Made by a program: the position numbers and the translations under genes. A DNA stretch of 64,000 nucleotides from Streptomyces armeniacus (GTDB lineage: Bacteria > Actinomycetota > Actinomycetes > Streptomycetales > Streptomycetaceae), in assembly GCF_003355155.1 (NCBI RefSeq), contig NZ_CP031320.1, positions 2,156,369-2,220,368 on the forward strand, read 5' to 3'. This document shows, piece by piece, positions 4,924-43,992 of the stretch (position 1 is the first letter of the stretch; every line of letters starts with the position of its first letter). The notes beneath the pieces are model-generated. The model saw only the letters and a list, made by a program, of their open reading frames with translations. It ran no database searches and had not been told where the DNA came from.

Positions 4924-4929
4924 CGTTCC

Positions 4930-9733: not shown

Positions 9734-9740
9734 GGCGACC

Positions 9741-9766: not shown

Positions 9767-9847
9767 ACCCCGCCCGCCCCTGGAAACGTAACCGCGCACC
9801 ACAACCCCCGGCCCCCGAACGTGCCCGCCGCACACCCGGCCCGCCGC

Positions 9848-10045: not shown

Positions 10046-10251
10046 ATCTCGCCCTTCACCTCTGCGAGGAGGCGGTCCCACGCCCCGGGAGAAAACCGCA
10101 ACATGCCCAAGTGCGGATTCTTGGAATCGCGTACGGCAACTACGCCTGCCAGTCCCGCGACCTGCACACAGTCGCCCTGGTCACCGCTGTAACTGCTCGT
10201 CCGCCACACCGTCGTGCCGCTCTCGGAGCGGTGCCTGTCTATTCGCTTCAT
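10042..10251 (-). CDS. DUF397 protein
   Basis: A 69-residue DUF397 protein with WRTSSYSGDQGDCVQVA and AVRDSKNPHLGML. It is a diverged paralogue of the next gene, consistent with a tandem duplication. The ATG overlaps the stop of the XRE regulator gene (ATGA), so its production is tied to that of the regulator. In related systems DUF397 partners are thought to bind or antagonise the XRE protein. Confidence 0.9.
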   Translation of the reverse strand: MKRIDRHRSESGTTVWRTSSYSGDQGDCVQVAGLAGVVAVRDSKNPHLGMLRFSPGAWDRLLAEVKGEM

Positions 10252-11105: not shown

Positions 11106-11140
11106 CCGAACCTCCTGGCCTCCGGTCGAAAACAAGGTGA

Positions 11141-11184
11141 AAGTGCACGTGCACTTCTATCGCCGCTCTTGCACTTCCGTGCAA
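11141..11184. promoter_or_regulatory. probable operators of the XRE regulator
   Basis: AAGTGCACGTGCACTT at 11141-11156 is a perfect 16-base palindrome. TTGCAC-TTCC-GTGCAA at 11169-11184 is a second inverted repeat, centred about 28 bases away. Both share the TGCACTT half-site. They sit in the 179-base gap between the divergent XRE operon and the HATPase gene, which suggests autoregulation and joint control. Confidence 0.65.
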
Positions 11185-11284
11185 CTGGTGAGCACTCTAC
11201 TACGAGGCATCACTTGGCGTCACAAGTTGCCACCTCATGGTGATCGTTCACTGCCAGCAGACCCTGTCGCAAAGGGGATACGTC

Positions 11285-11719
11285 ATGTCCGGAGATCGTC
11301 CAGCCTTCACGGTCAGGTCTGTCCAGCATCGGCTCCCGCGCACGCCGCGCAGCGTTGCGCAGGCGCGGACAGCGCTTCGGGCTCAGCTCACCGCGTGGGA
11401 CGTGGGACCGGACGACGTCACCACAGCCGAACTCGTTCTGTCCGAGCTCGTCGCCAACGCCGTGCAGCACGCGGGAGATCCACCAGGCCGTCAGGTAAAG
11501 GTGACTCTCACGTGTACGGACGACGGACTGCTCCGCATCGAAGTCTGCGACGCCTGCACCGCGTTGCCCCGCCCGCACGGCATTGCCCCCGGGGCGGACG
11601 CCGAATCCGGGCGCGGGCTGCTGCTCGTCGCCGCGCTGGCCGAGGGCTGGGGCGTCACGCCGCGTGCGTACGGAATCGGGAAGACGGTCTGGGCCGAGCT
11701 CAAGCTCGCGCCCGCGTAG
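11285..11719 (+). CDS. ATP-binding anti-sigma factor-like protein (HATPase_c)
   Basis: A 144-residue protein with a single GHKL/HATPase_c domain. The N box ELVLSELVANAVQHA and the G-loop region ESGRGLLLVAALAEGWGV are clear. There is no sensor or transmembrane part. This is the RsbW/SpoIIAB-like class of Streptomyces regulators often paired with XRE-DUF5753 and DUF397 genes. The ATG at 11285 is preferred because an AAAGGGGA sequence precedes it; the longer frame from 11237 lacks one. Its partner sigma factor or target is unknown. Confidence 0.87.
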   Translation: MSGDRPAFTVRSVQHRLPRTPRSVAQARTALRAQLTAWDVGPDDVTTAELVLSELVANAVQHAGDPPGRQVKVTLTCTDDGLLRIEVCDACTALPRPHGIAPGADAESGRGLLLVAALAEGWGVTPRAYGIGKTVWAELKLAPA

Positions 11720-11745
11720 CAATCGCCCGCGGGCCCGGGAGACCG

Positions 11746-13332
11746 TCAGCGCGGCGGCGCGCACGCCGTGTCCGGCGTGGAGGCCGGGACGAGGCGGACG
11801 TGTTTGGCCGGAAGTTTCAGCGGGCCATCCGTCGTCGTGTCCCACAGCACCACGTCGCCGTCCGCGACGCCGAACGAGACGTACGGGCGTTCCGGCCGCA
11901 AGCGGCCGCCCTGGCTTGCGAGTTCGCTCAAGGGCACCACCGGTTCCACGCAGGTCCAGGACGGGTCGACGCCGAAGTACGAGGGCGGCTGGGTGCCGCG
12001 TTCCGCCGCGTCGACCGTCGCGTGGGCCGCCCGGTCGGCGGAGTCGAGGACGACGCCCAGCGCCGTGGCCCCGAACGCGGCCAGCAGCACCGCCGCGACG
12101 GTGGCGCCGTGGAAGTCGCGTACGTAGTGGAAGTGCTTGGCGAAGCCGTACGCGGCGGGCACCAGCAGCAGTGGGTACAGGTCGCGGAGCAGGGCGACGG
12201 CGGCGATGGCCTGCCAGACGCCCGGCACGTCGAGGTCGCCGGGCGAGAGCGACAACTCGTCGGCGTACAACGCGTGTTTGACGGATCCGGCCGCGAGCAG
12301 CGCCGAGCCGATCACGGTCGCGGCGATGGGCCCCGCCACCGTCAGCCACTCACCCCAGGTCCACTGCCGTACGAGCAGCCACAGCCCGCCGCCGATGAAC
12401 ACCCCGAACACGATGAGGAACGCCTGTCCGCGTGACAGCCCAGAGTGGTCACCGGGGCCGCCCACCCACGCCAGCAGGAAGAACAGGGCGGTGACGACCG
12501 TGACGGCGGCGCCCCACAGCGCGCGCCCGTCGTGTCCGAGGCGGGTGCCGACGCGGAGTGCGGCGACGAAGGCCGCGAGGGCGAGCGTCGTCACGGCGTA
12601 ACGGCCGCCGCCCTCGGCGTCCCTGGCGACGACACCCAGCAGGGACATGACGACCAGCCAGACGCACAGCGCGGCCAGCCGCCCGTTGAGATCGTCCTCG
12701 CGGCGGAGCACCACCCCGGAGCGGGAGCGCGAACGGCCGTCCCCCGGGCGTACGTCCAGGCGTACGTCCAGGTCGTCGCCGCGCACGGCGTGCGCGCCGT
12801 TCGACGCGTGCGCGTCACGCGGCATGCGGGCCAGCCGTCGCGCCTCGGACGGCGTGCCGGCGACGAGGACACCCGCGTCGTACCGGCCGAGCCGTTCCCG
12901 GCAGCGGGCGCGGAACCGGGCCCATCCGTACGCCCGCACCGCGGGCGGCGCGGCGGGCCGTACGGGCACGTCGGGCCGGTGGGCGGTGGTGTGCGCGTAC
13001 CAGTCGGGCAGCAACTCGCGGTCGCGGCGCAGCAGTTCGGCGCGGCGTACGTACATCTCGACGCTGTACGCGCGGGCCAGCCGCCGTACGCGCCAGGCGG
13101 CGCCGCGTTCGGCGCGGCGGGCAGCGCCGTACAGGCCGACCTCGACGGACAGCAGCCGGGCGTCCGGCGCGGCGGTCAGCACGCCGGCGGAGGCGGCCTC
13201 GCCGCGCCCGTACTCGTCGACGACCCGCCAGCCGCGCGTCTCGCAGGCCGACTTGGCCGTCTCCCGGTCGCGCTCGCCGCCACGTACCTCGATGAGCACC
13301 AGCACCAGCCGGTCGAACCGTCTGCGCAGCAC
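11746..13332 (-). CDS. hypothetical multi-pass membrane protein
   Basis: I do not recognise this 528-residue protein. The first 215 residues are soluble, Arg-rich and of alpha/beta appearance (VLVLIEVRGGERDRETAKS). From about residue 218 to 420 there are roughly seven hydrophobic segments, beginning LAALCVWLVVMSLLGVV. The last 110 residues (from PSYFGVDPSWTCVEPVVPL) are hydrophilic and contain two Cys. The GTG start has GGGGAGG ten bases upstream. It is convergent with the HATPase gene and divergent from the DUF4185 gene. Confidence 0.7.
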   Translation of the reverse strand: MLRRRFDRLVLVLIEVRGGERDRETAKSACETRGWRVVDEYGRGEAASAGVLTAAPDARLLSVEVGLYGAARRAERGAAWRVRRLARAYSVEMYVRRAELLRRDRELLPDWYAHTTAHRPDVPVRPAAPPAVRAYGWARFRARCRERLGRYDAGVLVAGTPSEARRLARMPRDAHASNGAHAVRGDDLDVRLDVRPGDGRSRSRSGVVLRREDDLNGRLAALCVWLVVMSLLGVVARDAEGGGRYAVTTLALAAFVAALRVGTRLGHDGRALWGAAVTVVTALFFLLAWVGGPGDHSGLSRGQAFLIVFGVFIGGGLWLLVRQWTWGEWLTVAGPIAATVIGSALLAAGSVKHALYADELSLSPGDLDVPGVWQAIAAVALLRDLYPLLLVPAAYGFAKHFHYVRDFHGATVAAVLLAAFGATALGVVLDSADRAAHATVDAAERGTQPPSYFGVDPSWTCVEPVVPLSELASQGGRLRPERPYVSFGVADGDVVLWDTTTDGPLKLPAKHVRLVPASTPDTACAPPR

Positions 13333-13436
13333 CAGTCACCGCCCTCCCCTGCGGATCACTCTATGAGGCCGCGCGACACGGCCATTGGCCCGTGCGCCGA
13401 CCATTGACGGCGGAGGCCACCTGTAGAACTCTCTGT

Positions 13437-13448
13437 GAAATCGATTTC
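13437..13448. promoter_or_regulatory. AT-rich palindrome upstream of the DUF4185 gene
   Basis: GAAATCGATTTC is a perfect 12-base palindrome, unusually AT-rich for this genome. It lies 22-33 bases before the start of the secreted DUF4185 gene and may be an operator near the transcription start. Confidence 0.4.
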
Positions 13449-13469
13449 TCAATTGTGAGGAGTGTGCTC

Positions 13470-14684
13470 ATGCGCAACAGGAACAGCAGGGAGAAGAGTT
13501 CGATTTCAACGTCGGGCGAGGGGCCGGACAGCGGGTCGGGCGACGGCCCGTACGACTCCGCGAACGTCTCCCGCTCGACCCTGCTCCGCGCCGCCGCCGG
13601 TGCCGTCGCCGCCGGCGGGCTGCTGGTCGGCGCCGGCGCCGCGACGGCGCGCGCGACGGGGGCCACGGGCGCGAACGGCGCTCCGAACGGCAGACGCCGC
13701 GGCCGCCGCGCCCAGGCGCTCGAGGTGAAGAAGATCGCCGACCTGACCGGCCCCGGCCTCACCACCCGCTTCCGGATGGAGGCGACGGACCTCGGCATCC
13801 CGGCCCGTACGCCCGACGGGCGCACGCTGTGGGTCTTCGGCGACACCTTCGAGAACGCGACGGTCGGCGGCGGCTGGTGGCGTTCGCCGGTCGCGCTCTG
13901 GTCCACGACCACCGACCTGAACGCCGGGGTCACATGGTCCGGCGCGGTCGGCGGCGACGCGGCGCAGCAGTTGTGGCCGTACGAGCACGACAACCCGGAG
14001 TTCTCCACGGTCCTGCCGTCCGACGTGATCACGATCGGCGGCACCATGTATCTGCACGCCATGGTGAACAACGGCCTGCACAACGTCGTGTGGTCCGAGA
14101 TCTGGCGTTCCGACGACTCGGGCGCGACCTGGGTGCACACGGGCGCGAAGTTCCCCGGCGACCGGGACGGCCGCCTGTTCCAGTGCCTGACCTGGGGGCT
14201 GGGGAACGACGGTTGGGTGTACGTGTACTCGACGTCGTTCGACCGCAAGGGACCGATCATCCTGAACCGCGTGCGCAGCGAGGCCATCGCGGACCCGGCG
14301 GCGTACGAGCCGTGGGGCTACCGCGACGGAGCCTGGAACTGGGGCAACCCGCCAACGCCCATCCTGGAGGGCGCGTTCGGTGAGCTGTGCCTGCGGCCGC
14401 TTGGCGGGAAGTGGGTGCTGACGTGGTTCAACGCGGGTGACTACCGCATCGACGGCATCATCATGGACACCCCCACCTCCGACCTCCACGCCGCGCCCCG
14501 CCAGACGCTGATCTGGGGCGGCGACTGGGGCAACGAGGACGACTCGCACGTCGCGCAGCTCTACGGCGGCTACATCATCCCCGGCTCCACGCTGGGCGAG
14601 CTGCACCTGTCGGTGAGCCAGTGGAACACCGAGGTCAACTGGCCGTACCGGGTGATGCAGCACCGCATCCGCGGCTTCGGCTGA
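13470..14684 (+). CDS. secreted DUF4185 domain protein
   Basis: A 404-residue protein with a Ser/Gly-rich N-region, a hydrophobic export segment at about residues 34-60 (LLRAAAGAVAAGGLLVGAG) and a DUF4185 domain of beta-propeller type. The domain shows repeated motifs such as LWVFGDTFENATVGGGWW, DVITIGGTMYLHAMV and EIWRSDDSGATWVHTG. Such proteins resemble glycoside-hydrolase-type five-bladed propellers and are thought to act on cell-wall or extracellular glycans. The exact substrate is unknown. The ATG has GAGG ten bases upstream. A strong hairpin follows at 14756-14793. Confidence 0.85.
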   Translation: MRNRNSREKSSISTSGEGPDSGSGDGPYDSANVSRSTLLRAAAGAVAAGGLLVGAGAATARATGATGANGAPNGRRRGRRAQALEVKKIADLTGPGLTTRFRMEATDLGIPARTPDGRTLWVFGDTFENATVGGGWWRSPVALWSTTTDLNAGVTWSGAVGGDAAQQLWPYEHDNPEFSTVLPSDVITIGGTMYLHAMVNNGLHNVVWSEIWRSDDSGATWVHTGAKFPGDRDGRLFQCLTWGLGNDGWVYVYSTSFDRKGPIILNRVRSEAIADPAAYEPWGYRDGAWNWGNPPTPILEGAFGELCLRPLGGKWVLTWFNAGDYRIDGIIMDTPTSDLHAAPRQTLIWGGDWGNEDDSHVAQLYGGYIIPGSTLGELHLSVSQWNTEVNWPYRVMQHRIRGFG

Positions 14685-28035: not shown

Positions 28036-28704
28036 TCAACGCCGTCGCGAGGCGAGGGCGCAGGCGACGGCCGTCGCCGCGGCCGCCACACCGCACGACA
28101 CCGCGAACGGCAGCCACGGCACCGGCACGGCCCCGTCGTGCGACGCCGTGACCAGCCCCCGTACGGCGGCGTTCGCGGGCGAGACGCCCACGACCAGGAC
28201 GAGCAGCGCCGCCAGCATCGTCGAGCAGACCGCCCAGCCGGTGCTGTGCAGCAGCGGCCGGTTGCACAGCGCGCCGACGGCCGTGCCGAACAGCGCGCAG
28301 GCGAGCGCGGCCAGCAGCCCCGCGCCCGCGGCGGGCAGCAGTGGCACCCGTGTGGCCCCGTCGGTGGTGTGCGGGTCGCTGATCACCAGGACCACGGCCG
28401 TACCGGCCGCGCCCAGCACCGCCGAGGACAGGAACCCGGCCAGCACGCTCGCCAGATGCGTACGGGCGGGCCCCAGCGCGGCGGCTGCGCAGTGCCGGGC
28501 GGACTCGGGCTCACCCGTCACGCAGACCCGTACGAGCCACGCGGCCACCGGCAGCAGCGCCGCCGCGGCGAAGCCGAGGGAGTCCAGCAGCGGCTGGCCC
28601 GCCTGCAGGCCGACGCCCACGCACACGGCGTACAGCAGGAGGGGCGGCAGCCAGCGCTGCGAGCGGAGCAGCAGGGCGAGCTGGTAGCGGACGAGTGCGC
28701 TCAC
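28036..28704 (-). CDS. ABC transporter membrane subunit
   Basis: A 222-residue protein with about six hydrophobic segments (ALVRYQLALLLRSQRWLPPL, then LLYAVCVGVGLQAG) and the final run WLPFAVSCGVAAAATAVACA. The GTG start overlaps the stop of the ATPase gene by four bases, so the two form a coupled pair. The substrate is unknown. It resembles ABC-2-type subunits of the sort that move antibiotics, lipids or bacteriocins. Confidence 0.8.
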   Translation of the reverse strand: MSALVRYQLALLLRSQRWLPPLLLYAVCVGVGLQAGQPLLDSLGFAAAALLPVAAWLVRVCVTGEPESARHCAAAALGPARTHLASVLAGFLSSAVLGAAGTAVVLVISDPHTTDGATRVPLLPAAGAGLLAALACALFGTAVGALCNRPLLHSTGWAVCSTMLAALLVLVVGVSPANAAVRGLVTASHDGAVPVPWLPFAVSCGVAAAATAVACALASRRR

Positions 28705-29612
28705 GGCCGGTGACCACCCTCCGCGGAATCCGCCTCCGGTGCAGTGGGAGGCTCCACCGTACGGATGTGCCACGGCGGCCGCGCCGCGAGCAGTGCGCGC
28801 AGCAGCGCATCGGAGTGTGCGGCCGGAACGGTCAGCCGTACGGAGCCGTCCAGGCCCGGCTCACCGCGCGGCGCGCCGGGCAGCCCCACGGGCAGGGCCG
28901 CGCCGGGCGGGCCGGTCACGGTGACCCGGGCCGTTGGCCCGGAAGCGGCACCGGCGGCGGCGCCGGAATCACCGGCGCCGGAATCAGCGGCCGCAGCCCC
29001 CGCCGCGGCCGCCACCCGCCCGTCCGCCACCCGCAGCACGGTGTGCACCGAGTCCGCCAGCCGCCGCGGGTCGTGGTCCACGTAGACGACGGTGCCTGCG
29101 TCGGCGACGCGTTCGGCGACCGCGCGGTCCAGTTCGTCGCGGGCCTCGCGGTCGAGGCCCGTCCAGGCCTCGTCCAGGACCAGCAGCCGGGGCTCCGCAA
29201 GCAGCGCCTGGGCGACGGCCACCTTCTGGCTGCTGCCCTTCGACAGGTCGGCCATGGGCGTACGCGCGTACGCGCCCGCCCCGAAGCGCTCCAGCCACTC
29301 CCCTGCCGCGCGCGCGGCGGCGCCTCCGCGCAGCCCGCGTGCGCGCGCCTGATGGGTGAGGTAGCCGGCGGCGCTGAACGGGAGTGCGGCGGGGAAGCGT
29401 TCGGGCACGTACGCGGTACGGCGCGGCCGTCCCGTGATGCGTCCCGAGGACGGCGCGTCGATGCCCGCGAGCAGCCGCAGCAGGGTGGACTTGCCGCTGC
29501 CGTTGGTGCCTTCGACGCGCAGGACGGCCGCCTCCGGAAGGTCGGCGTCCACGCCGCGCAGCACCCAGGGGCCGCCCAGCCGGTAACGCCGTCCGACGCC
29601 ACGCAGTCTCAT
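28701..29612 (-). CDS. ABC transporter ATP-binding protein
   Basis: A 303-residue ATPase with Walker A EGTNGSGKSTLLRLLAG, the signature LSKGSSQKVAVAQALL, Walker B LLVLDEAWTGLDREA and the His switch YVDHDPRRL. The signature is degenerate (SKGSSQ rather than LSGGQ). A long Ala/Gly-rich insertion at about residues 205-235 leads to a small C-terminal domain. The ATG lies eight bases after TAGGCT, which itself covers the stop codon of the upstream DUF1152 gene. It may therefore be read both from its own promoter and from the upstream operon. Confidence 0.88.
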   Translation of the reverse strand: MRLRGVGRRYRLGGPWVLRGVDADLPEAAVLRVEGTNGSGKSTLLRLLAGIDAPSSGRITGRPRRTAYVPERFPAALPFSAAGYLTHQARARGLRGGAAARAAGEWLERFGAGAYARTPMADLSKGSSQKVAVAQALLAEPRLLVLDEAWTGLDREARDELDRAVAERVADAGTVVYVDHDPRRLADSVHTVLRVADGRVAAAAGAAAADSGAGDSGAAAGAASGPTARVTVTGPPGAALPVGLPGAPRGEPGLDGSVRLTVPAAHSDALLRALLAARPPWHIRTVEPPTAPEADSAEGGHRP

Positions 29613-29620: not shown

Positions 29621-29626
29621 AGCCTA
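29621..29626 (-). promoter_or_regulatory. -10 hexamer of the ABC operon within the preceding stop codon
   Basis: On the minus strand TAGGCT; its TAG is the stop codon of the DUF1152 gene. The ABC ATPase ATG follows after eight bases with no Shine-Dalgarno. Confidence 0.4.
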
Positions 29627-30790
29627 GGCGTACGGCCGCCCGGCTACTGCCCCCATGTCGCGGCCCGTTCGGGCGAGCGTCAGGAGGGGGCCCTTTGCGG
29701 ACAGGGCGTTGCGCAGGGCGGGGATGTGCTCCCAGGGGAGGCCGAGCGCGCGGGCGGCGAAGCGGAAGGTCGCGTGGGACGCGTCCGACGGCTCCGTACG
29801 GAGGGCTTCCCGCAGAGTGTCGCGGCTCGTGAGGGGACGGGCGCTGTCGGGCGGCGTGCGGTGGCTGTCCGGGTCGCGCCGTTCGTGGTGCGGTCCCTGC
29901 TGCCGTTCATGCGGCCGCCCGTGCTGCGGTCCATGGGGCGGTCCGTGCTGCCGTTCGCGCTCGATCTCGTGGAGGCCGGTGAGTCCGGCCGAGAGGTCCG
30001 CGGCCTCCTCCAGCGTTCCCGGTCTCTTCTCCACGAGCGCCTGGGCCACGACGTTGTGGCCGATCGCGCCGTCGAGGGTCTGACGGCGGACGCCGGCGGA
30101 GTCGTCGGTCAGTTCGAGGGAGCGCGTCACGGTCCTGACCGTGCCGCGTTCCCCTTCGATCGCGGCGGCGAACAGGGCGGACGCCTCGGAAGGATGCCAG
30201 GACAGCGCCGCTCCGGCCGCTTCGACGGCGTACGCGCCCGGCGTGATGCGGGAGCTTTCGCTGCGGGCGACGACCTCGCTCCGGGGGACTTCGCCGTCGG
30301 CGCCGGGCGCGGCCACGTACACGGTGGCGTCGACTCCGGCGATCCGGCAGGCGGCGAGAACCATGGCGTCCGGGAGCGGGCTGGCCAGGGTGGGCTCGTC
30401 GCCGTGGGTGAGCACGTCACCGCCGATGTCGACCACGTGGACCCGGTGGTACCCGCACGAGGCCATGCGGAAGACCTGCTCGGCCAGGGCCCGCAGGCCC
30501 GCGGTCGGGTCCATCAGCACCAGACGGCCCGGGAGGTCACCGGCCAGGCGCGGCAGTGTGGAACCGGCGGGCCCGACGGGCCGGGTGCGCGGGGAGAACA
30601 GGGGGCCTTCGGCCGCCCGTTCCAGGCCGTCGAAGTCGGCGGCTCCCAGCGGGCCGGGGGTGGGGTCGACTTCGGGACGCTCCCACGCGTACGTGGCGAT
30701 GGTGGGCTCGGTGACGCCGAGGGCGGCGGCGGTGATGGCGGCACCGAGCGGGTCACCGCCGCCTCCCGCGGCGATGAACAGCTCGCTCAC
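29624..30790 (-). CDS. DUF1152 family protein with His-rich linker
   Basis: A 388-residue protein. The DUF1152 domain begins AAGGGGDPLGAAITAAA and has TYAWERPEVDPTPGP and VHVVDIGGDVLTHGDEP, the conserved family segments. The fold looks like a Rossmann nucleotide-binding enzyme. Between about residues 275 and 320 lies a linker rich in His, Gln, Pro and Arg (HGPPHGPQHGRPHERQQ), then a C-terminal helical part. The GTG overlaps the stop of the radical SAM gene by four bases. Its reaction is not known to me; coupling to the radical SAM enzyme suggests the two act in one pathway. Confidence 0.85.
   Translation of the reverse strand: MSELFIAAGGGGDPLGAAITAAALGVTEPTIATYAWERPEVDPTPGPLGAADFDGLERAAEGPLFSPRTRPVGPAGSTLPRLAGDLPGRLVLMDPTAGLRALAEQVFRMASCGYHRVHVVDIGGDVLTHGDEPTLASPLPDAMVLAACRIAGVDATVYVAAPGADGEVPRSEVVARSESSRITPGAYAVEAAGAALSWHPSEASALFAAAIEGERGTVRTVTRSLELTDDSAGVRRQTLDGAIGHNVVAQALVEKRPGTLEEAADLSAGLTGLHEIERERQHGPPHGPQHGRPHERQQGPHHERRDPDSHRTPPDSARPLTSRDTLREALRTEPSDASHATFRFAARALGLPWEHIPALRNALSAKGPLLTLARTGRDMGAVAGRPYA
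29835..29970. repeat. degenerate repeat encoding a His-rich linker
   Basis: Units around TGCGGTCC(A/C)TG and CTGCCGTTC recur and encode His-Gly-Pro/Arg-Gln repeats in the DUF1152 protein. The run is low-complexity and in frame. Confidence 0.5.
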
Positions 30791-32223
30791 GCGGGCTCCT
30801 TGAGGTCGATGCCGGTGATGCGCACCGGATCCGCGCCCATGGTCTTGCGGGCGCGGCGGTTGGCCTTGTGCAGTCCCTCGTAGTGCTCGCGGTCCAGGGT
30901 CTTGACGTGCTCGGAGTAGAACATCCAGGACAGGATGTCGCGGTACTTGAAGCCCTTTGGAGTGAGCTGGACGCGGCGGCCGAGGCGGTGGATGAGGCCG
31001 TTGGTCTCGGCCGCGTCGAGTACGGCCGTCACCTCGCCACCGATCCTGTCGAGGCCGAAGCGGTCGAGTTCGGACAGGTCGAGGTCGAAGGTGTCGAGGA
31101 CGAGGCGCTTGCGGACGATCTCCTCTCCGGTGAGCGGGAAGCCGGTGACGGGGGCCAGCTCGTGGTTCCGGGCCTTGCGGATGTAGTCGGCGACCTCCTT
31201 GGCGGAGGGCCGCACGCTGCCCGTCATGTAGTCGAGGACGGAGGTGTACGAGCGGGCGCCGACGCCGAGGCCGAGCAGCGGGACGCCGCGGAAGGTGAGC
31301 ACCTTCTGCACGTAGCCGCCGCGGCCGGGCTTCTTGTAGCGGACAGAGCCCTCCTGGACGTACCCGGCGCCGGTGAGGACCTCGCGGGCGTAGTCGTAGC
31401 GCTCGTAGAGGGCGGGGTCCCACATGTACTGGTACGAGCCGGTCTTGGAGAACCAGGCGTCCGGGCGGACCGTGAGGAAGTAGGTCGAGACGGTGGTGGG
31501 CTCCAGCCTGGCCAGCTCGTCGACGCTGTGCCGCCAGGATTCGGGGGTCTGCCCGGCGAAGCCCATGATCAGGTCCGTGGACAGATCCGGAAGCCCCTGC
31601 TCCTGGACGATGCGGACGGCCTCGCGGATGACGTCTTCGTTCGACCTGCTCCGGCCGGCTTCCCTGATCTCCTGCGGGACGAGGGACTGGATGCCGATGT
31701 TCGCCCGCGTCAGCCCCAGTTCCAGCAGGCGGGCGAAGCCGTCCGGGTTGTCCACGACGCTGTCCGGGGTCGCTTCGATCGCCACCTCCTCCACCGTGGA
31801 GCGCCAGTTGGGGTAGATCTCCGCGAGCGTGGTGAAGATCTGCTCGAAGTGCTCGGTGCGCAGCAGGGCCGGGGTGCCGCCTCCGATGTAGACGGTGCGC
31901 AGCCGGCGGGCCTGGATGATCGCCGCGTGGTCGCGGATCTGGGTGCACAGGGCGTCGGTGTAGGCGTCGTACACGTCCTGGTCGGTGGAGATGACCGTGT
32001 AGAGGTTGCAGAAGCCGCACTTGACGTTGCAGAACGGGACGTGCAGATACAGATTCAGCTCGGGAGACTGGTGGTTGGCCAGGTCCCGGTCCCAGACCTC
32101 GCCGACGTCCCACGCACCCGGCTCCAGGGGCCGGTAGGCGGAGCGGGGCGGGTAGGAGTACTGGTAGGGCGGTATGACGCCCTGGCTGATGTGGTCGGCG
32201 AGCTGGTCATGCAGGCTGGTCAC
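30787..32223 (-). CDS. HemN-like radical SAM enzyme of the small biosynthetic cluster
   Basis: A 478-residue enzyme. The cluster motif is LYLHVPFCNVKCGFCNLY near residue 65-80 (CxxxCxxC, binding 4Fe-4S and SAM). It is followed by VYIGGGTPALL, TRANIGIQSLVPQE and DLIMGFAGQTPESW, the order seen in HemN, HemW and class C radical SAM methylases. The C-terminus carries a HemN_C-like winged helix (VQLTPKGFKYRDIL). The GTG has AGGGGG seven bases upstream. It overlaps the DUF1152 gene and faces two ATP-grasp genes. Biosynthetic tailoring fits better than haem synthesis, since the window holds the oxygen-type haem genes. The exact reaction is inference. Confidence 0.85.
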   Translation of the reverse strand: MTSLHDQLADHISQGVIPPYQYSYPPRSAYRPLEPGAWDVGEVWDRDLANHQSPELNLYLHVPFCNVKCGFCNLYTVISTDQDVYDAYTDALCTQIRDHAAIIQARRLRTVYIGGGTPALLRTEHFEQIFTTLAEIYPNWRSTVEEVAIEATPDSVVDNPDGFARLLELGLTRANIGIQSLVPQEIREAGRSRSNEDVIREAVRIVQEQGLPDLSTDLIMGFAGQTPESWRHSVDELARLEPTTVSTYFLTVRPDAWFSKTGSYQYMWDPALYERYDYAREVLTGAGYVQEGSVRYKKPGRGGYVQKVLTFRGVPLLGLGVGARSYTSVLDYMTGSVRPSAKEVADYIRKARNHELAPVTGFPLTGEEIVRKRLVLDTFDLDLSELDRFGLDRIGGEVTAVLDAAETNGLIHRLGRRVQLTPKGFKYRDILSWMFYSEHVKTLDREHYEGLHKANRRARKTMGADPVRITGIDLKEPA

Positions 32224-32284
32224 GTGCTGCCCCCTGTTTCGGTCCCCGAGGTGTGCGGTCACGCGTGAAGACGACCTTGCGCAG

Positions 32285-32302
32285 CGCTCCGTGCGTGGAG
32301 CG
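32285..32302. promoter_or_regulatory. inverted repeat in the divergent promoter region of the cluster
   Basis: CGCTCC-GTGCGT-GGAGCG is a short perfect dyad in the 226-base gap between the radical SAM gene and the first ATP-grasp gene. It is a candidate shared operator; CACGTG also occurs at 32221 and 32331. Confidence 0.3.
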
Positions 32303-32449
32303 GACAAGCGAAGCTACGGTCGGGGCGCGTCACGTGTCCATGGGCGGCGGCTTGTTCGGAGGTTGCTCTGAAATCCCTGCCGGGCGGCCGAGTCGGCTTT
32401 GTCGGTCACGACGATGGCCACGGGGCTTCCCACCCGGTTGAGTAGGGCG

Positions 32450-33703
32450 ATGAACATCGGCACAGACCCCTGCGGGGCCGGGGTGCTGGTCGTCGAGCCG
32501 ATGGGGAACGCCGGCCGTTTCCTCGTCGATGCCGCCGACCGGCTGGGCGTCCGTCTGTACGCGGCCACGCACAAGGACATTCACGACTCGTACAGCCCCT
32601 CGCTGCGGTCCGCGCTCGCCGGGGTGTGCGAGACGGACCTGGCGGACACCCCGCGTGCCCTGGAGGACATGGAGGACTTCTGCCGGCGCCACTCCGTCGC
32701 GGGAGTCGCCGCCTGCTGGGAACTCCTCACCCCCCTCGCCGCGCTCCTCGCGCGGCGGTTGGGCCTGCCCGGCAACGACCCTGCCCTGGCGCACGCCGCC
32801 CGGAACAAGATCCTCATGGGCGAGGCGTTCGCCGCCGCCGGTGTTCCGGCACCGCGGTGGACGGCCGTACGGGACTCCGCGCAGGCCCGCGGGGCCGTGG
32901 CGGAGCGCGGCCTGGGGTGGCCGCTGGTGGTCAAGCCGGCGGAACAGGGCGGGTCTTGGGGGGTGAGTGTGCTCGACGGGCCGGACCAGCTTGACGCGGC
33001 GATGGCCGCGGCGCAGCGGCACACGTACGCGCAGCCGCACGGACTGCGGCTCGACACCAGGGTGCTGGCGCAGGAGTACATCCCGGGTGAGGAGTTCTCG
33101 TGCGACACGATCGTGGCGGACGAAGTGGCGTATCCGCTGCCGGTCGTACGCAAGGACACCACCTCCGGTGCCCACCGGATCGAGACCGGTCACACCTGCC
33201 CGGCCGGGCTGGCGCCGTCGACGGCCCGGCTCGTCCGGCACACCGCGGCCCGCGCCGCGCTCGCGGTCGGGATCAGGAACGGGATCGCGCACACCGAGGT
33301 GAAGATCCCTCCGGGGGCGGAAGTGGCCTTCGTACTCGAGACCGGGGCGCGGCTGCCGGGCGGGAACCTGTGCGAGGTCGTCGAGACCGCCACCGGGGTC
33401 AGCGAGGCGGTGGCCTACCTGCAGACCGTGCTCGGCCGTGTCCCCGACACCGCGCCGACGCGTACGGACGCCGCCGCCATACGATTCCTGCTGCCCCGGT
33501 CCGGCGGCAGGCTGCGGCGCGTGTCCGTCCCCGAGGTCTCCGGCACGCACAGCGAACTCCACCTGGGTGCGGGCGACACGGTGCCCGAGCCCGAAGACTC
33601 CTCGTGCCGGATCGGGCAGGTGGTCGCCCGCGCGGGGACCGTCGCCGAAGCCCGCCGGCTGGCGGAGGACGTCGCCGCCCGGACCCGAGTGGAAGTGAGC
33701 TGA
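32450..33703 (+). CDS. ATP-grasp carboxylate-amine ligase
   Basis: About 417 residues. The N-terminal preATP-grasp Rossmann part is GVLVVEPMGNAGRFLVDAAD. The ATP-binding lobe has LGWPLVVKPAEQGGSWGVSV, and the metal/substrate region ends FVLETGARLPGGNLCEVVE with TATG following, as in L-amino acid ligases (BacD type). Such enzymes join a carboxylate and an amine through an acyl phosphate. The start is uncertain: ATG 32450 is favoured over TTG 32399 and ATG 32414, none with a strong Shine-Dalgarno. It is the first gene of a four-gene plus-strand operon. Confidence 0.85.
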   Translation: MNIGTDPCGAGVLVVEPMGNAGRFLVDAADRLGVRLYAATHKDIHDSYSPSLRSALAGVCETDLADTPRALEDMEDFCRRHSVAGVAACWELLTPLAALLARRLGLPGNDPALAHAARNKILMGEAFAAAGVPAPRWTAVRDSAQARGAVAERGLGWPLVVKPAEQGGSWGVSVLDGPDQLDAAMAAAQRHTYAQPHGLRLDTRVLAQEYIPGEEFSCDTIVADEVAYPLPVVRKDTTSGAHRIETGHTCPAGLAPSTARLVRHTAARAALAVGIRNGIAHTEVKIPPGAEVAFVLETGARLPGGNLCEVVETATGVSEAVAYLQTVLGRVPDTAPTRTDAAAIRFLLPRSGGRLRRVSVPEVSGTHSELHLGAGDTVPEPEDSSCRIGQVVARAGTVAEARRLAEDVAARTRVEVS

Positions 33704-33709
33704 AACCCC

Positions 33710-34954
33710 GTGAAGATGGCGTTCCTGAGGTCGGTGGACATCCAGCGTGCCGACCCCTACATCCAGCAGGCGGTGGACGAACTCTCGGCGAAGGGTGTGC
33801 GGTCGGGCCTGTTCTACACCCACGGGCAGGCCGGCGAGGCGGACTTCCCCGGCGAGCGGCTCCCGCTGGACCCGGGGCTGGGTGCGCGCGAACTGGCCGA
33901 GCGGGTCGCCGACTGGGGCGCGGACGCCGCCGTCTCGATCTCCCTGCCCTGTGAGAACGCCCTGCGGGACGCGGCGGCCGGGCAGATCCTCAGAGCCGCG
34001 GGGATTCCCACGGTGGTCTCTCCGGTGGAGGTGACATGGGGCCTGGTCGACAAGTGGGACTGCAAGCAACTCCTCACCCACGCCGGCCTCGACGTGCCGA
34101 AGGGCTTCCGCGCGGACTCCGACCTCCTGCACGGCCGCGGCCTCACGGTCCCCGGGTACGCGGACGCCATCCGCGCGGCGGCGGCGGAGACCGGGTTCCC
34201 GTTGCTGTCCAAACCCGTGTGGGACTCCACCAGCATGGGCATCCGGCCCATCCCCGACGAGGCGGGACTGGAGAGCTATCTGAGCGCTCCGCCCCCGGTG
34301 TCCGCGGTCGTCGAGGAGGTGGTGCACGGGGACCTGTGCAGTGTGGACATCGTCGGCGCGCCGGGCGCGTATCAGGTGCTTCCGGTGTGCTGGACCGGTG
34401 TCGCGGCGGCGCAGCCGGTGTTCACCTTCGCCGACCTGCGCTGGTGCGGCCCCCGCCCCGAGGCCGACGCGGCGTTCGAGCCGGTGGCGAAGAAGCTCAC
34501 CGACCTGTTCGCCGGTCTCGGTGTCGAGGGCAGCGTCAACGTCGACATGATCCACACCGCGGGCACGTACCGGATCCTGGAGGTCAATCCGCGCATCGGC
34601 GGCGCCACGACCCTGTCGTGCGCGGCCTCCGGCACCAATACCTTCCGTACGCTCGCCGCGCTGGCCCTCGGGCAAGAGCCGGCCGGGGCGCCCGTACGGA
34701 CGGGGTGGGCCATCGAGTTCCTCGTCCCCGACGGTGTTCCCGAACGGGCGAGGGCGGAGCTGGCTCGCGGCCTGGAGCTGGTCACCCTGCACGAGCTGGT
34801 GATCGACGGGTTCAGCCACGGCGACATCGTCGTCTTCACCCTCCCCGAGGGCGAGGAGCCACGGACGCTCGAAACCCTGGCGGGAATGCGCCGTTCGACC
34901 GGCTTCCCCTCGGCGGACGTCGTGGAGAAGATCGCCCGGCTGCTCGCCCCGTGA
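33710..34954 (+). CDS. second ATP-grasp ligase
   Basis: A 414-residue ATP-grasp enzyme. Visible parts are AVSISLPCENALRDAAAG in the N-terminal domain, LVDKWDCKQLLTHAGLDVP before the lid, PLLSKPVWDSTSMGIRPIPD in the ATP lobe, and the metal-binding end RILEVNPRIGGATTLSC. It is clearly different from the previous gene, so the pathway needs two separate ligations. The gap to the first gene is six bases. The start may be GTG 33710 or ATG 33716. It overlaps the next gene by four bases. Confidence 0.85.
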   Translation: MKMAFLRSVDIQRADPYIQQAVDELSAKGVRSGLFYTHGQAGEADFPGERLPLDPGLGARELAERVADWGADAAVSISLPCENALRDAAAGQILRAAGIPTVVSPVEVTWGLVDKWDCKQLLTHAGLDVPKGFRADSDLLHGRGLTVPGYADAIRAAAAETGFPLLSKPVWDSTSMGIRPIPDEAGLESYLSAPPPVSAVVEEVVHGDLCSVDIVGAPGAYQVLPVCWTGVAAAQPVFTFADLRWCGPRPEADAAFEPVAKKLTDLFAGLGVEGSVNVDMIHTAGTYRILEVNPRIGGATTLSCAASGTNTFRTLAALALGQEPAGAPVRTGWAIEFLVPDGVPERARAELARGLELVTLHELVIDGFSHGDIVVFTLPEGEEPRTLETLAGMRRSTGFPSADVVEKIARLLAP

Positions 34955-36207
34955 CCACCAGCGCGCCGTCCCGCCCCCGCCCCCGCGGCATGTCCCGGAT
35001 CCTGGGGCTTCCGCCGCTGCGCGGCCACGGCCTGTTCATCACCGGCCACTTGATCGACTCGCTCGGCAACGGCATGCTCCTGCCGCTGAGCCTGCTGTAC
35101 TTCACCGACGTACGCGGCCTGCCGCTCGCGTCCGTCGGGATCGCCGTCACCGTGGGCCAGGCCATCGCGCTGCCCGTCACCTTCCTCGCCGGGCGCGTCA
35201 TGGACCGCGCCGGGCCGAAGGCCGTGGTCGTGGGGGCCAACCTGCTCTCCTGCGCCGGATTCCTCGTCTTCCTGCCCGCGCGGGAGCTGTGGCACGTCGC
35301 CGCCGCCTACGTGCTGGTACAGGCGGGAATCAACGGGTACTTCACCGCGCAGCGCACCCTCGTCACGCATGTCACGGCCGCCGCCGAGCGACGGGCGTGG
35401 TTCGCCTTCACCGGCAGCCTGCGCAACGTCGGGCTCGCCGCCGGGGCCGGGCTCGCGGCGGGCGCACTCGCCCTGTCCGGCGAAGGGGCCCTCCAGTGGA
35501 TGATCGCCGTCGACGCCGCCACCTATCTCCTCGCCGCCGCCTGCTTCGCCTCGCTGCGCACCACCAAGCCCGCCCCCCAACCCCCCACCGGCGGCGGACA
35601 GCTCACCCGCACGGACAACACGCGCCGCTACCTGCTGCTCGTGTCCCTCAACATCCCCTACGTCCTGGCCCAGGCCCTCCTGTCGGTCCTCATCGCCCTC
35701 TACGCCACCCGCACCCTCGGCCTCCCCGCGTGGTCGGCGAGCGTCGTGTTCGTCATCAACACCGTGATCGTGTCCACCCTGTCCACTCCGATCACCGCCC
35801 ACCTGGCCCCGAAGGTCCCCCGCCGCGCGGTCGGCGGCGGATACCTCCTCATGACCCTGGCCATGCTCGCCTTCGCCGCCCCGGCCGCCCCCGGCCTCGC
35901 GTTCACCGCCTGGAGTGCCCTCGTCGCGGGGATCGTGCTGTTCAGCGTGGCGGAGATCCTCCTCGGCCCCGCGATGAACGAGCTGTCGGTCAGCCTCACC
36001 CCCGATGCCGCCTCCGGCTTCACGCAGGGGCTGTACCAGTTCTCCTGGGCGTCCGGCATGATCGCCGCACCGGCCCTGTTCACCTTCCTCCTCGACACCG
36101 GGCCGCTCGCACCGTGGGCGGTGGAGGCCGCCTTCTGCCTCCTGGCGTGCCTCGCCTCGCCCGCACTCAAAGCGCCGAACCGACACCGCCGAAGGAACCG
36201 CCGTTGA
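34951..36207 (+). CDS. MFS transporter, probable product exporter
   Basis: A 418-residue protein with about 12 hydrophobic segments. The N-half has LFITGHLIDSLGNGMLLPLS and the conserved loop FLAGRVMDRAGPKAVVVGA (motif A). The C-half has MIAAPALFTFLLDTGPLAPW. The GTG overlaps the stop of the ATP-grasp gene (GTGA), and the next gene overlaps its own stop, so it is embedded in the operon. Its likely job is export of the ligase product, or self-resistance. Confidence 0.87.
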   Translation: MTTSAPSRPRPRGMSRILGLPPLRGHGLFITGHLIDSLGNGMLLPLSLLYFTDVRGLPLASVGIAVTVGQAIALPVTFLAGRVMDRAGPKAVVVGANLLSCAGFLVFLPARELWHVAAAYVLVQAGINGYFTAQRTLVTHVTAAAERRAWFAFTGSLRNVGLAAGAGLAAGALALSGEGALQWMIAVDAATYLLAAACFASLRTTKPAPQPPTGGGQLTRTDNTRRYLLLVSLNIPYVLAQALLSVLIALYATRTLGLPAWSASVVFVINTVIVSTLSTPITAHLAPKVPRRAVGGGYLLMTLAMLAFAAPAAPGLAFTAWSALVAGIVLFSVAEILLGPAMNELSVSLTPDAASGFTQGLYQFSWASGMIAAPALFTFLLDTGPLAPWAVEAAFCLLACLASPALKAPNRHRRRNRR

Positions 36208-37208
36208 ACACGGACCTCGTCCACAGCATCCACGACGTCCCCGCCGGCGAGTGGGACCGCCTGGCCCGGCAGACCAGCCTCTACCTGTCCCACCGCTGGC
36301 TCGCCGGAGAGGAACAGGACCCCACCGCGACCGCCTCCTACGTCCTCGTACGGGACCGCGAAGGGGCGATCCTCGCCGCCACGCCCCTCTACGAAGTGCA
36401 CGAGGAGCCCAACGACAACTACCGGACAGACACCGTCCTGTCCTCTCCCGCGAGCCCGCGGGTCATCGCCGGAGCCCGCCGCGGCTACCACAACTCCCCC
36501 CTCACCGCCCCCGGCCTGACCGCGGATCAGCGCGCGGCCTGCCTGACCCTGCTGCGCGACGCCGCCCGCGCACACGCCGGCCGCCTCGGCACCACCCACT
36601 GGTGGCCCTACCTCACCCGGGCCGCCGCCGACGCCCTCGCCCCCCTCTACCGGGAACGCCCCCGGCACCAGCAGGACGACGCCACCATTCCGCTGCCGGG
36701 CCACGGCTTCGACGACTACGTCGCCTCCCTGCCCGCGAAGCGCCGTGCCGGCGTGCGCAGTGAGCGCCGCGCCTTCGCCGAGTCCGGACTCGACCTCCGT
36801 ATCCAGCCGCTCGGCGACTGCTACCAGGACGCCGGCAGCCTGCTCGCCGGCCACCAGAAGTCGCACGGCCACGCGCGCGACAGCACGGGCGTCATGACGG
36901 AGCTGCTGAAGCGGCAGGCCGAGGCCATGGGAGACACCGCACGTGTGGCCGCCGCGTACGACCAGGACCGGATGATCGGCTTCTGCCTCTCCTACCACTA
37001 CGGCGCCACCACCTGGATCAGGGCGGTGGCCGCCGACAAGGAGCACCCCGCGCCGTACGCGTACTTCAACCTCGCGTACTACCTGCCGATCGAGGACGCC
37101 TACGCCCACAAGACCACCGCGCTGCACGCCGGCATGAAGAGCATCGAGGCCAAGCGCCTCCGCGGCGCGGAGGTGAGCTCGCTGTACGCGCTTCACGACG
37201 TCCCGTAG
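36204..37208 (+). CDS. FemAB/GNAT-like (peptidoglycan biosynthesis/recognition) protein
   Basis: A 334-residue protein beginning with a TTG that overlaps the MFS stop (TTGA) and has GAAGGA seven bases upstream. The sequence has SLYLSHRWLAGEEQDPTA near the start, VASLPAKRRAGVRSERRAF in the middle and YYLPIEDAYAHKTTALHAG near the end. This matches the double-GNAT peptidogalycan biosynthesis/recognition family (PF04339-like). Relatives of this fold transfer amino acids from tRNA (FemX type) or acyl groups. In this operon it may add an aminoacyl or acyl group to the ligase product. Confidence 0.78.
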   Translation: MNTDLVHSIHDVPAGEWDRLARQTSLYLSHRWLAGEEQDPTATASYVLVRDREGAILAATPLYEVHEEPNDNYRTDTVLSSPASPRVIAGARRGYHNSPLTAPGLTADQRAACLTLLRDAARAHAGRLGTTHWWPYLTRAAADALAPLYRERPRHQQDDATIPLPGHGFDDYVASLPAKRRAGVRSERRAFAESGLDLRIQPLGDCYQDAGSLLAGHQKSHGHARDSTGVMTELLKRQAEAMGDTARVAAAYDQDRMIGFCLSYHYGATTWIRAVAADKEHPAPYAYFNLAYYLPIEDAYAHKTTALHAGMKSIEAKRLRGAEVSSLYALHDVP

Positions 37209-40754: not shown

Positions 40755-40772
40755 GGCCTGACCCGTCAGGCC
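40755..40772. terminator. hairpin between convergent genes
   Basis: GGCCTGA-CCCG-TCAGGCC has perfect seven-base arms and overlaps the hemQ stop codon. It separates the convergent peptidase and hemQ genes. Confidence 0.55.
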
Positions 40773-41482
40773 AGCCCGGACACCAGCTCCTGTACGGGCT
40801 TGCGCCGCCCCGTGTAGAACGGCACCTCCTCGCGGACGTGCAACCGCGCCTCGGACGCCCGCAGATGACGCATCAGGTCCACGATCCGGTGCAGCTCGTC
40901 GGCCTCGAAGGCGAGCAGCCACTCGTAGTCGCCGAGGGCGAAGGAGGCGACGGTGTTGGCGCGTACGTCCGCGTAGCCGCGCGCCATCTTGCCGTGCTCG
41001 GCGAGCATCCGGCGGCGGTCCTCGTCGGCCAGCAGGTACCAGTCGTAGGAGCGCACGAACGGGTACACGCAGATGTAGTCGCGCGGCTCCTCGTCGGCGA
41101 GGAACGCCGGGATGTGCGCCTTGTTGAACTCCGCCGGCCGGTGCAGCGCCATGTTCGACCACACCGGCTCCAGCGCGCGGCCCAGCCGGGTGCGGCGGAA
41201 GCGGTTGTACGCCTCCTGCAGCGCGTCGGACGTGCCGGCGTGCCACCAGATCATGACGTCGGCGTCCGCGCGCAGCCCGGACACGTCGTAGGTGCCGCGT
41301 ACGGTCACGTCCTTGGCGGCGAGCTGCGCGTACAGCTCCTCGACCTCCTCCGCGTACCCGGTGCGGTCCTCGGGCAGCACCTCGCGGAGCCGGAAGACCG
41401 ACCACAGGGTGTAGCGGATGGTCTCGTTGAGGTCCTTGGCCTTCTTGCCCGCGTTGGGGGCCTTCTCCGGTGCAGCAGTCAT
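40766..41482 (-). CDS. hemQ: coproheme decarboxylase HemQ (chlorite dismutase family)
   Basis: HemQ decarboxylates coprohaem to haem b, the last step of the coproporphyrin-dependent pathway of Gram-positive bacteria. The 238-residue sequence has [33 protein letters not shown], the catalytic-Tyr region [19 protein letters not shown] and the haem-ligand His in [15 protein letters not shown]. There is no chlorite dismutase Arg pocket. It is five bases downstream of hemY on the same strand, an operon. Confidence 0.95.
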
Positions 41483-41486
41483 GCGG

Positions 41487-42914
41487 TCATTGTCCCGCGC
41501 CCGCCTCCGCGCCCCGCGCCAGGGTGGCCTCCGCCGCCCGCCACGCGCTCGCGATGCACGCGGGGATGCCGACCCCGTCGTACGCGGCGCCGCACACGGC
41601 CATCCCGGGCAGCGCGGCCAGGTCCCGGCGGACGCGGGCGACGCGGTCCAGATGCCCCACCGGGTACTGCGGCAGGCCGTCGTCCCAGCGGCTCACCAGC
41701 GCGTCCACGGGCTTCGCGGACAGCCCGAGGGCGGCCTCCAGATCGTGCCGCGAGGCGGCGACCAGCTCGCCGTCGTCCCGCCGCAGCTGCTCCTCCTCGC
41801 CGTACCGTCCGACGGACGTGCGCAGCACGAACAGTTCCGGGTCCTGCGCGCCGCTCCACGCCCACTTGTTGGCGGAGAAGGTGGACGCCTTGATGGTGCG
41901 GCCGTCCACGGGCGGCACCAGGAAGCCGCTGCCGGGCGGGGTGCCGTCGAGGTCCGCGCGCCGGAACGCGAGGGTGACGAGCGCCATCGACGCGTACTCG
42001 ACGGCGGCCAGCTCGGCCGACGCGGCCGGCGCCTCGGCGGCCAGCAGCCGCGCGGCGGCGGGCGCGGGGACGGCGAGGATCACGGCGTCGGCGGCGAACG
42101 TCTCTCCGGCGCCGCCCCCGGCATCCGTGCCGACGTGCCAGGTGCCGGCCTCGCCGCTGCGGGCGCGGCGCAACTCCCGTACGGAGGTGCCCGTACGGAG
42201 GTCCCCTCCGGCGGCGCGGCACGCGTCGGCCGTTGCCGGGGGCAGCCGTCCGATGCCGCCGTCGATGCCCATGAAGACTGGTCCGGACGCGGCAGCGCCC
42301 GCCGCGGCCTGCCGTTCCTGCAGGGCGCGGACACCGGCCAGCAGGGAACGTTCCGCGCGGGCGGCCTCGTACAGCTGCGGCACGGCGGCGCGCATCGACA
42401 GCCGGTACGCGTCGCCCGCGTACACGCCGCCCAGCAGCGGCTCCACGAGCCGGTCCACCACCTCGCGGCCCAGCCGCTCCGCGACGTACGCGCCGACCGC
42501 CACGTCCTCGCCGACCTCCGTACGGGGCAGCGTCTCGTCCTCGGCGATACGCGCGAGCCCGTCCGGCGACACCACCCCGCCCAGCGCGGCCGGGTCGGCG
42601 GGCACGCCCATGACGTGCCCGCGGGGCATGGGGCGCAGCGCGCCGCGCGTCCAGATCGACGCCCCCGCGGTGGCGGGCGGCTCCAGCGCGTCGCCGAGCC
42701 CGACGGCACGCGCCAGGTCCACCCCCTCGGGGCGGCGGGCGAGCATCGCCTCCGCGCCGAGGTCGACGGCGGCGGCGCCGGCGATGTCGCCCGCGTACAG
42801 CTTTCCGCCCAGCCGCGGCGACGCCTCCAGCAGTGTCACGGCGGCGCCGTCCCGGAGCAGCCGGTGGGCCGCGGCAAGCCCGGCGATCCCGCCGCCGATC
42901 ACGATGACGTGCAT
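41487..42914 (-). CDS. hemY: coproporphyrinogen III oxidase (HemY/CgoX type)
   Basis: An FAD-dependent oxidase that forms coproporphyrin III in the coproporphyrin-dependent haem route. The 475-residue protein starts [20 protein letters not shown] (dinucleotide-binding motif) and continues [14 protein letters not shown]. The C-terminal FAD clamp is [18 protein letters not shown]. It stands directly upstream of hemQ, which supports the coproporphyrin- rather than protoporphyrinogen-type assignment. GGAAAG lies eight bases before the ATG. It is divergent from a DUF4349 lipoprotein gene. Confidence 0.92.
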
Positions 42915-43050
42915 GTCACCACTTTCCCAGACCCGCCGTCGCGCCCGGCACGAGCCCTCGACGTGACCGCTTCGCAACCCCCGTACGGCAACCGGCGCCC
43001 GCGCCGCCCCGTCCAAGGTGCGACAACCACGAGGCGTGGGGGGCGGATTG

Positions 43051-43992
43051 ATGCGGAGTCCGGTGGTACGGGGGGCCGTGGCGCTCGCCGCGGCCCTGCT
43101 GGTCGCGTCGGCCGGGGTCACCGGCTGTACGTCGGGCAGCGACGGCGGCGGTTCAGCGGACGGCCCGGAGAGGGCGCGCGACGGGAAGGCGGGGCAGGAG
43201 GCGGCGCAGAAGGCCGCACCGGAGGCGGAGGCGGGGGCCGAGGCGGACCCGTCGGCGGGCGCGTCCGAGGCACCGGCCTCCCCCCAGGAGCACATCGTCC
43301 GTACCGCCGAGGTGGCCGTGGAGACGGAGGACGTGCCGGGCGGTCTCGCCGAGGCCCGTGCGACCGTACGGGCCGCCGGCGGTTACGTCGGCAGCGAGAC
43401 GACGGACAGGGACCCCGACGGCGGCGAACGCTCACGCGCGACGCTGCGCGTGCCGCCCGCGGAGTACGAGTCCGTGCTCGGCAAGCTGTCCGGGCTCGGG
43501 GAGCTGCGGGAACGGAAGGTGTCGGCGAAAGACGTCACCGACCAGATGGTGGACGTACGCAGCCGGATCAAGACGCAGCAGGCCAGCGTCGAGCGCGTAC
43601 GGAAGCTGATGGACGACGCGGAGAAGCTGTCCGACGTCGTGACGCTGGAGTCCGAACTGAGCACCCGGCAGGCGGACTTGGAGGCGCAGCAGGCACGCCT
43701 GAAGTCGCTGGAGGACCGCACCGGGATGGCGACGCTGACGCTGATCCTGCGCGACCCGGACGGGTCGTCCGGCTCCGGCGGGGACGGCGGCACGTCGGTC
43801 GGCGACGCGCTGGCAGGCGGCTGGGGCGCCTTCGTGGTGATGCTGCGGTGGGTGGTCATCGCCCTGGGCGCGACACTGCCCTTCGCGGCTGCCGCGGCCC
43901 TCCTGTTCCTGGTCTGGCGCGCTGTACGCCGTCGCGGCGGAGCTCCCGCCGCGACGGCACGGCCCCCTGGCGGCGAAGGGCCGGCGGACTGA
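43051..43992 (+). CDS. DUF4349 lipoprotein
   Basis: A 313-residue lipoprotein. The signal has the lipobox VTGC (SAGVTGCTSGSDGGG), then a flexible Glu/Ala/Gly tether to about residue 80. The DUF4349 domain (IVRTAEVAVETEDV, AAGGYVGSETTDRDPDG, SAKDVTDQMVDVRSRIKTQ) includes a coiled-coil at about 175-235. A C-terminal membrane segment (WGAFVVMLRWVVIALGAT) follows. It probably sits on the outer face of the membrane with both ends anchored. It separates hemY from hemE on the opposite strand. GGGGGGCGG precedes the ATG. Confidence 0.85.
   Translation: MRSPVVRGAVALAAALLVASAGVTGCTSGSDGGGSADGPERARDGKAGQEAAQKAAPEAEAGAEADPSAGASEAPASPQEHIVRTAEVAVETEDVPGGLAEARATVRAAGGYVGSETTDRDPDGGERSRATLRVPPAEYESVLGKLSGLGELRERKVSAKDVTDQMVDVRSRIKTQQASVERVRKLMDDAEKLSDVVTLESELSTRQADLEAQQARLKSLEDRTGMATLTLILRDPDGSSGSGGDGGTSVGDALAGGWGAFVVMLRWVVIALGATLPFAAAAALLFLVWRAVRRRGGAPAATARPPGGEGPAD

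Follow-up and report, generated by a model that had tools for sequence, protein, structure and literature searches.

We analysed a 64,000-nucleotide stretch of the complete 8.08 Mb genome of Streptomyces armeniacus (contig NZ_CP031320.1, positions 2,156,369 to 2,220,368), hereafter the window, in which six genes occupy positions 29624-37208 as two divergent transcription units. The minus strand carries the gene of a HemN-like, class C-like radical S-adenosylmethionine (SAM) protein (478 amino acids, 30787-32223) followed by that of a DUF1152 protein (388 amino acids, 29624-30790). The plus strand carries, in this order, ATP-grasp ligase 1, of the L-amino acid ligase type (434 amino acids, 32399-33703), ATP-grasp ligase 2, of a different family (414 amino acids, 33710-34954), a major facilitator superfamily (MFS) transporter that is probably an exporter (34951-36207), and a FemAB-like ligase with the double-GNAT FemX fold, predicted to depend on aminoacyl-tRNA (36204-37208). 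Between the two units lies a divergent intergenic region (32224-32398) that measures about 170-280 bases in 19 loci; a search of these 19 for a conserved operator in the divergent promoter found no 8-mer present in more than 8 of them.

A preliminary description made from the DNA letters had annotated these six genes and proposed that they make and export a peptide-like compound. Its annotation is upheld by Pfam domains above their cut-offs in all six proteins: PF06626 (DUF1152), PF04055 (radical SAM), ATP-grasp_4 with LAL_C2 and ATPgrasp_N (ligase 1), ATP-grasp_3 with ATPgrasp_Ter (ligase 2), MFS_1 (PF07690, 111 bits) and FemAB_like (PF04339). The domain families and a fold match likewise confirm two different ATP-grasp ligases and a FemX-like ligase, the HemN-like assignment of the radical SAM protein stands, with most of the class C SAM-site residues present, and no nonribosomal peptide synthetase (NRPS) or polyketide synthase (PKS) gene is found among the six. 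One detail has to be corrected: not four but three of the six genes start within the preceding stop codon, namely DUF1152 (GTGA, in the stop codon of the radical SAM gene), MFS (GTGA, in that of ligase 2) and FemAB-like (TTGA, in that of the MFS gene), while ligase 2 does not overlap ligase 1 and begins 6 bases beyond its stop. Ligase 1 itself may start at the ATG at 32450 rather than at the TTG at 32399, since the alignment to several relatives begins only at about residue 18 or further on. None of the six genes contains a TTA codon.

The preliminary description had set its proposal against the possibility that homologues of the six genes never occur together in actinomycete genomes; they do, in 25 distinct complete clusters (24 in addition to the window). 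Gene order and strands are identical in 23 of the 25, of which 21 are as compact as the window and two (L075 and L077) carry about 2 kb, including another MFS gene, between the radical SAM gene and ligase 1; in the remaining two (L080 and L082) ligase 1 has been relocated beyond DUF1152. The surrounding genes are not shared: when those beside the cluster in the window were compared with the 24 other clusters, only three weak matches were obtained (27-35% identity), two of an ABC ATPase and one of a hydrolase. In a separate comparison of seven loci each flanking gene matched at most one other locus, these counts being lower bounds, as the gene finder missed some of the six genes, including in the window. 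Because 23 of the 25 clusters share order and strands while their flanks are unrelated, the six genes occur together more than expected by chance, and we conclude that they form a conserved cassette, a real unit. In the window, an ABC ATPase gene (28036-29612, minus strand) has the orientation of DUF1152 and comes within 11 bases of its stop, and could for that reason be co-transcribed with the cluster there; the conservation of the cluster does not extend to this gene.

The distribution of the single genes agrees with this picture. Full-length relatives of ligase 2 (41-68% identity, the window's own aside) were identified in 19 of 297 Streptomycetaceae genomes, that of the window included, and the next-best matches in this set were partial and scored at most 45 bits. 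The 18 neighbourhoods of these relatives comprise 11 with all six genes, one cut by a contig end, five of another type and one partial case (L039, 8747-13029), which keeps a piece of DUF1152 together with ligase 2, MFS and FemAB, lacks the radical SAM and ligase 1 genes, and is a remnant cluster, that is, a natural partial deletion. The radical SAM protein (E <= 1e-100) was found in 14 of the 297 genomes (12 of the fetched neighbourhoods, the window and the short contig L146), with DUF1152 adjacent in all 14 and the ligases adjoining in 13; in the fourteenth, the contig ends inside ligase 1. In phylum-wide samples, the radical SAM protein appeared in 2 of 246 genomes and ligase 2 in 2 of 296, in both cases only in the genus of the window. 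When named genomes were scanned with the ligase 2 alignment, 79 loci were obtained, 41 of which (L050-L090) had recognisable relatives: 21 with radical SAM, DUF1152 and the two ligases (all six genes in 19, contig ends cutting the other two), 13 belonging to a type that we call B and describe below, six others, and L076, a contig of 4.3 kb that carries radical SAM and ligase 2 and that we did not include among the complete clusters.

Of the six proteins, radical SAM is the best conserved, with a mean pairwise identity of 0.79 compared with 0.54-0.61 for the other five, and pairwise distance matrices correlate in each of the 15 gene pairs (r = 0.81-0.97, a level reached by none of 1000 shuffles), species relatedness being uncorrected in these values. 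This analysis started from 27 loci, of which L058 and L065 were dropped for a gene missing at a contig end; L033, L036, L037, L041, L042, L045 and L047 were left out as the same contigs as named loci, the DUF1152 of L035 was not aligned, as a stop lies within its stretch, and the MFS gene of L035 is split over two frames. We also considered and rejected two other roles for the genes. Carriage as phage or plasmid cargo was discarded since 72,556 plasmid records yielded nothing for the radical SAM protein at E 1e-60 and viral contigs yielded no confirmed relative, DUF1152 alone occurring on two Streptomyces plasmids; a defence system was discarded because PADLOC gave only a single weak match (E 0.005).

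The radical SAM protein has two matches in the PDB, HemN, the better one, and the class C methylase NocN, and it falls below the cut-offs of both NCBIfam families to which we compared it: it scores 269.2 bits with its closest family, STM4012 (NF006067, cut-off 380), and 121.5 bits with the HemN equivalog TIGR00538 (cut-off 324.95). It has the CxxxCxxC cluster motif of a HemN-type protein (C65, C69 and C72, each invariant in 13 rows). In NocN, the side chains of Tyr34, Tyr96, Arg153, Arg171, Asp196 and Ser225 touch two SAM molecules (PMC12871812, a preprint), and in an alignment read by eye these pair with Y59, Y112, R173, R191, D217 and S246 of the window protein, all of them invariant in 13 rows. 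The HemN fold family, the CxxxCxxC motif and the six SAM-contacting side chains are thus common to this protein and the class C methylases NocN/NosN, TbtI and C10P, whereas STM4012-type relatives, although they pair with DUF1152 as the window protein does, differ at Y112 and S246. Two positions weigh against the class C assignment: Arg230 of NocN, which stacks on SAM and substrate, is replaced by T251, and its catalytic Tyr276 by R295, with Arg253 and Tyr296 of the window protein lying near these positions. Since the acceptors in class C one-carbon transfer are sp2 carbons (PMC12871812, preprint; PMC6050322), a methylation-type step is the reaction that we would predict.

DUF1152 is a clear member of its family (PF06626, 186.7 bits, cut-off 27), with an AlphaFold model of predicted local distance difference test (pLDDT) 89.5 and with D121, G123, D125, G130, E132, D141, D165 and H199-P200-S201 invariant in 14 diverse rows. 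No paper on DUF1152 or on STM4012 turned up in the open-access literature. A smaller unit was observed in L142 (4102-9000), L143 and L144, where a true STM4012-family radical SAM gene, DUF1152 and an EamA transporter stand together without ATP-grasp genes, once with a NADAR-domain gene.

Ligase 1 carries the domains of an L-amino acid ligase (ATP-grasp_4, 54.5 bits; LAL_C2, 46 bits) and matches the L-amino acid ligases BL00235 (E 9.5e-17) and BacD (E about 1e-12) in the PDB, and it falls far below the cut-offs of the specific BacD (NF053745, 52.7 bits against 850) and DdaF (NF041595, 51.4 against 840) families. Ligase 2 gave no match when searched against the PDB as a single sequence; as a profile it matched D-Ala ligase and carbamoyl-phosphate synthase, and K168, E202 and E291-x-N293-P294-R295 are invariant in 16 rows. 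The FemAB-like protein has the double-GNAT FemX fold, with FemX, FemA and Sbb17 as its nearest folds (16% sequence identity to Sbb17), and its K317, near the C-terminus, is invariant in 22 rows; judged by eye, this residue may correspond to the catalytic lysine that is Lys305 in FemX and Lys329 in DhpH-C.

From the gene content, the co-conservation, the fold of the last enzyme and the SAM-site residues, we infer the individual reactions, their order, the direction of transport and the secretion of the product as follows. In the first step, the class C-like radical SAM enzyme and a dedicated partner, DUF1152, would transfer one carbon to an sp2 carbon and so produce an unusual building block; the two ATP-grasp ligases would then couple this block with one or two amino acids, the FemX-fold enzyme would add a further aminoacyl group from aminoacyl-tRNA, and the MFS protein would export the product. 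We consider it probable, at roughly 60%, that the six genes are a conserved, self-contained cluster that makes a small peptide-like compound in this way, without an NRPS, a PKS or a ribosomal precursor.

Among the competing explanations, the cluster could consist of two adjacent units that work independently, a ligase operon and, divergent from it, a radical SAM/DUF1152 pair that serves a purpose of its own. The three loci in which DUF1152 adjoins an STM4012-family gene without ATP-grasp genes, together with the 13 type B loci, L061 and L063, which have the ligases but not the radical SAM gene, are in line with such independence; the constant company of the radical SAM gene and the ligases in the 297 genomes (13 of 14, the last truncated) and the order kept in 23 of 25 complete clusters make it unlikely. 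That the FemAB-like protein acts on peptidoglycan, with the ligases making a wall or resistance building block, would agree with FemX and FemA among the nearest folds and with the description of PF04339 as peptidoglycan biosynthesis, and yet the antibiotic enzyme Sbb17 is an equally good fold match, so that we regard a cell-wall or self-modification role as quite improbable.

ATP-grasp and radical SAM enzymes are a common combination in clusters of ribosomally synthesized and post-translationally modified peptides (RiPPs; PMC8939145), and a graspetide-like cluster would need a small precursor for the ligases to modify. No small open reading frame in the divergent region, the only place in which tiny genes were sought, is common to more than 6 other loci of the 19, the flanks are not shared among clusters, and ligase 1 is of the L-amino acid ligase type, all of which renders a RiPP very unlikely. 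Least probable is a role in heme metabolism with the radical SAM protein as a coproporphyrinogen or heme enzyme. HemN is its best PDB match, and about 3.5 kb from the cluster a chlorite dismutase-family and a FAD amine-oxidase-family gene lie side by side (40766-43295, minus strand), a pair that we take to resemble the late heme genes HemQ/HemG; the score of the radical SAM protein with the HemN equivalog is nevertheless well short of the cut-off, and neither heme-type gene was found in the 24 other clusters.

Our study also identified the ligase pair behind other front ends. The 13 type B loci among the 41 all contain ThyX-like, LOG-like and 2OG-Fe oxygenase genes as well as ligases 1 and 2 (adjacent in 9), with a pyrimidine-type permease in 10 and an MFS homologue in 9, so that they share with the window the ligases and, in these 9, the transporter, while the front end is pyrimidine-type; no radical SAM, DUF1152 or FemX homologue was found in the 13. 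Family scores, taken from one representative (L046), are 168 bits for Thy1, 190 for TIGR02170 (cut-off 88), 177 for TIGR00730 (cut-off 96) and 237 for Xan_ur_permease, the best NCBIfam name of the permease being RutG, below the RutG cut-off. The type B LOG proteins match solved phosphoribohydrolases and retain GGGxxGxMG and PGGxGT, which we take to be the LOG signatures. In the Bacillota, L088 (Croceifilum oryzae, 3378-14379) has four ATP-grasp genes, including two relatives of ligase 1 and one of ligase 2, with MFS, a ThyA-like protein whose scores stay under the thymidylate synthase cut-offs, an NTPase, an amidohydrolase that resembles deaminases, LOG and a radical SAM protein of another family; it is possibly an unexplored cluster for a pyrimidine-derived metabolite. 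Parts are exchanged between the cluster types: a 448-residue protein with no Pfam match is found in two loci of the window's type (type A) and in type B L043/L070 (one contig), L044, L049 and L084, at 51-55% identity, and a relative of the PF10014 dioxygenase in L076, L080, L082 and type B L078. In L080 the 448-residue protein is encoded at 3784-5130 (minus strand), and parts of it resemble a rearranged ATP-grasp by eye. Other arrangements include L089 (Streptococcus gallolyticus, 7608-11020), where three ATP-grasp genes, the last two being distant relatives of ligases 1 and 2, stand behind an Rgg-type regulator and the locus ends with the contig, and the short contig L068 (2646-4807), where a ligase 2 relative overlaps a shikimate-dehydrogenase-like gene.

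Such variety in front of the ligase pair suggests that radical SAM plus DUF1152 may have replaced another front end. In the tree of ligase 1, the type A rows fall into a single group that encloses L061 and L063 (support 85/92, not starred); in that of ligase 2, type A does not hold together as a group (a minimum of 3 changes is forced) and several deep forks are open. The Bacillota rows are on long branches. For these reasons, a change from a pyrimidine-type to a radical SAM front end is a reading and not a result. More speculatively, and with rather low confidence, the ligase pair and exporter could be the common core of pathways to nucleobase-derived peptide-like compounds, in which an ancestral front end turned a nucleotide into a C5-modified pyrimidine (thymidylate-synthase-like one-carbon transfer, base release by LOG) and was replaced in the lineage of the window by the class C radical SAM enzyme and by DUF1152 as a base-releasing or nucleotide-processing enzyme, with the tRNA-dependent ligase added. 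What suggests this is solely the company that the genes keep, and profile comparison of DUF1152 with LOG phosphoribohydrolases and PIG-L deacetylases gave no clear sequence relation. No paper on a combination of thymidylate synthase, phosphoribohydrolase and ATP-grasp genes for nucleobases in Streptomyces turned up in the open-access literature.

Precedents exist for each part of the cluster, and none was found for the whole set. Phosphonoalamide biosynthesis is a tested case in which two ATP-grasp ligases make a tripeptide in Streptomyces (PMC11867202); PnaB and PnaC are, like the ligases of the window, two different ATP-grasp enzymes that yield a short peptide without an NRPS. That pathway starts from phosphonoalanine via an aminotransferase, whereas no aminotransferase domain is present among the six proteins, and the passages describing it name no radical SAM, DUF1152 or FemX gene (PMC11867202). 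FemX-fold aminoacyl-tRNA ligases operate in small antibiotics (DhpH-C, DhpK, VlmA and PacB; PMC12945691), and the passages concerned with dehydrophos, valanimycin, pacidamycin and BD-12 (DhpH-C/DhpK, VlmA, PacB and Orf11/Sbb17) mention neither a class C radical SAM enzyme nor DUF1152 as a partner. No description of the six-gene set turned up in the open-access literature, the PDB, Pfam or NCBIfam, which were the scope of this search; MIBiG, antiSMASH and most subscription literature lay outside it.

If the proposed pathway is true, the cluster is a compact route that does without an NRPS and combines radical one-carbon chemistry with three amide-forming steps, two by ATP-grasp enzymes and one dependent on aminoacyl-tRNA, and it is present in about one in 20 of the sampled Streptomycetaceae (14 of 297). 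What is new here is that the ligase pair is also found with other front ends, in type B and, with ThyA-like, NTPase and LOG proteins, in one Bacillota locus. Since the pair is combined with such different front ends, it can be used as a genome-mining bait for compounds that lie outside NRPS and PKS searches. The cluster also gives a handle on DUF1152, which Pfam lists as a family of unknown function, and the nucleobase reading, if true, would provide its first function.

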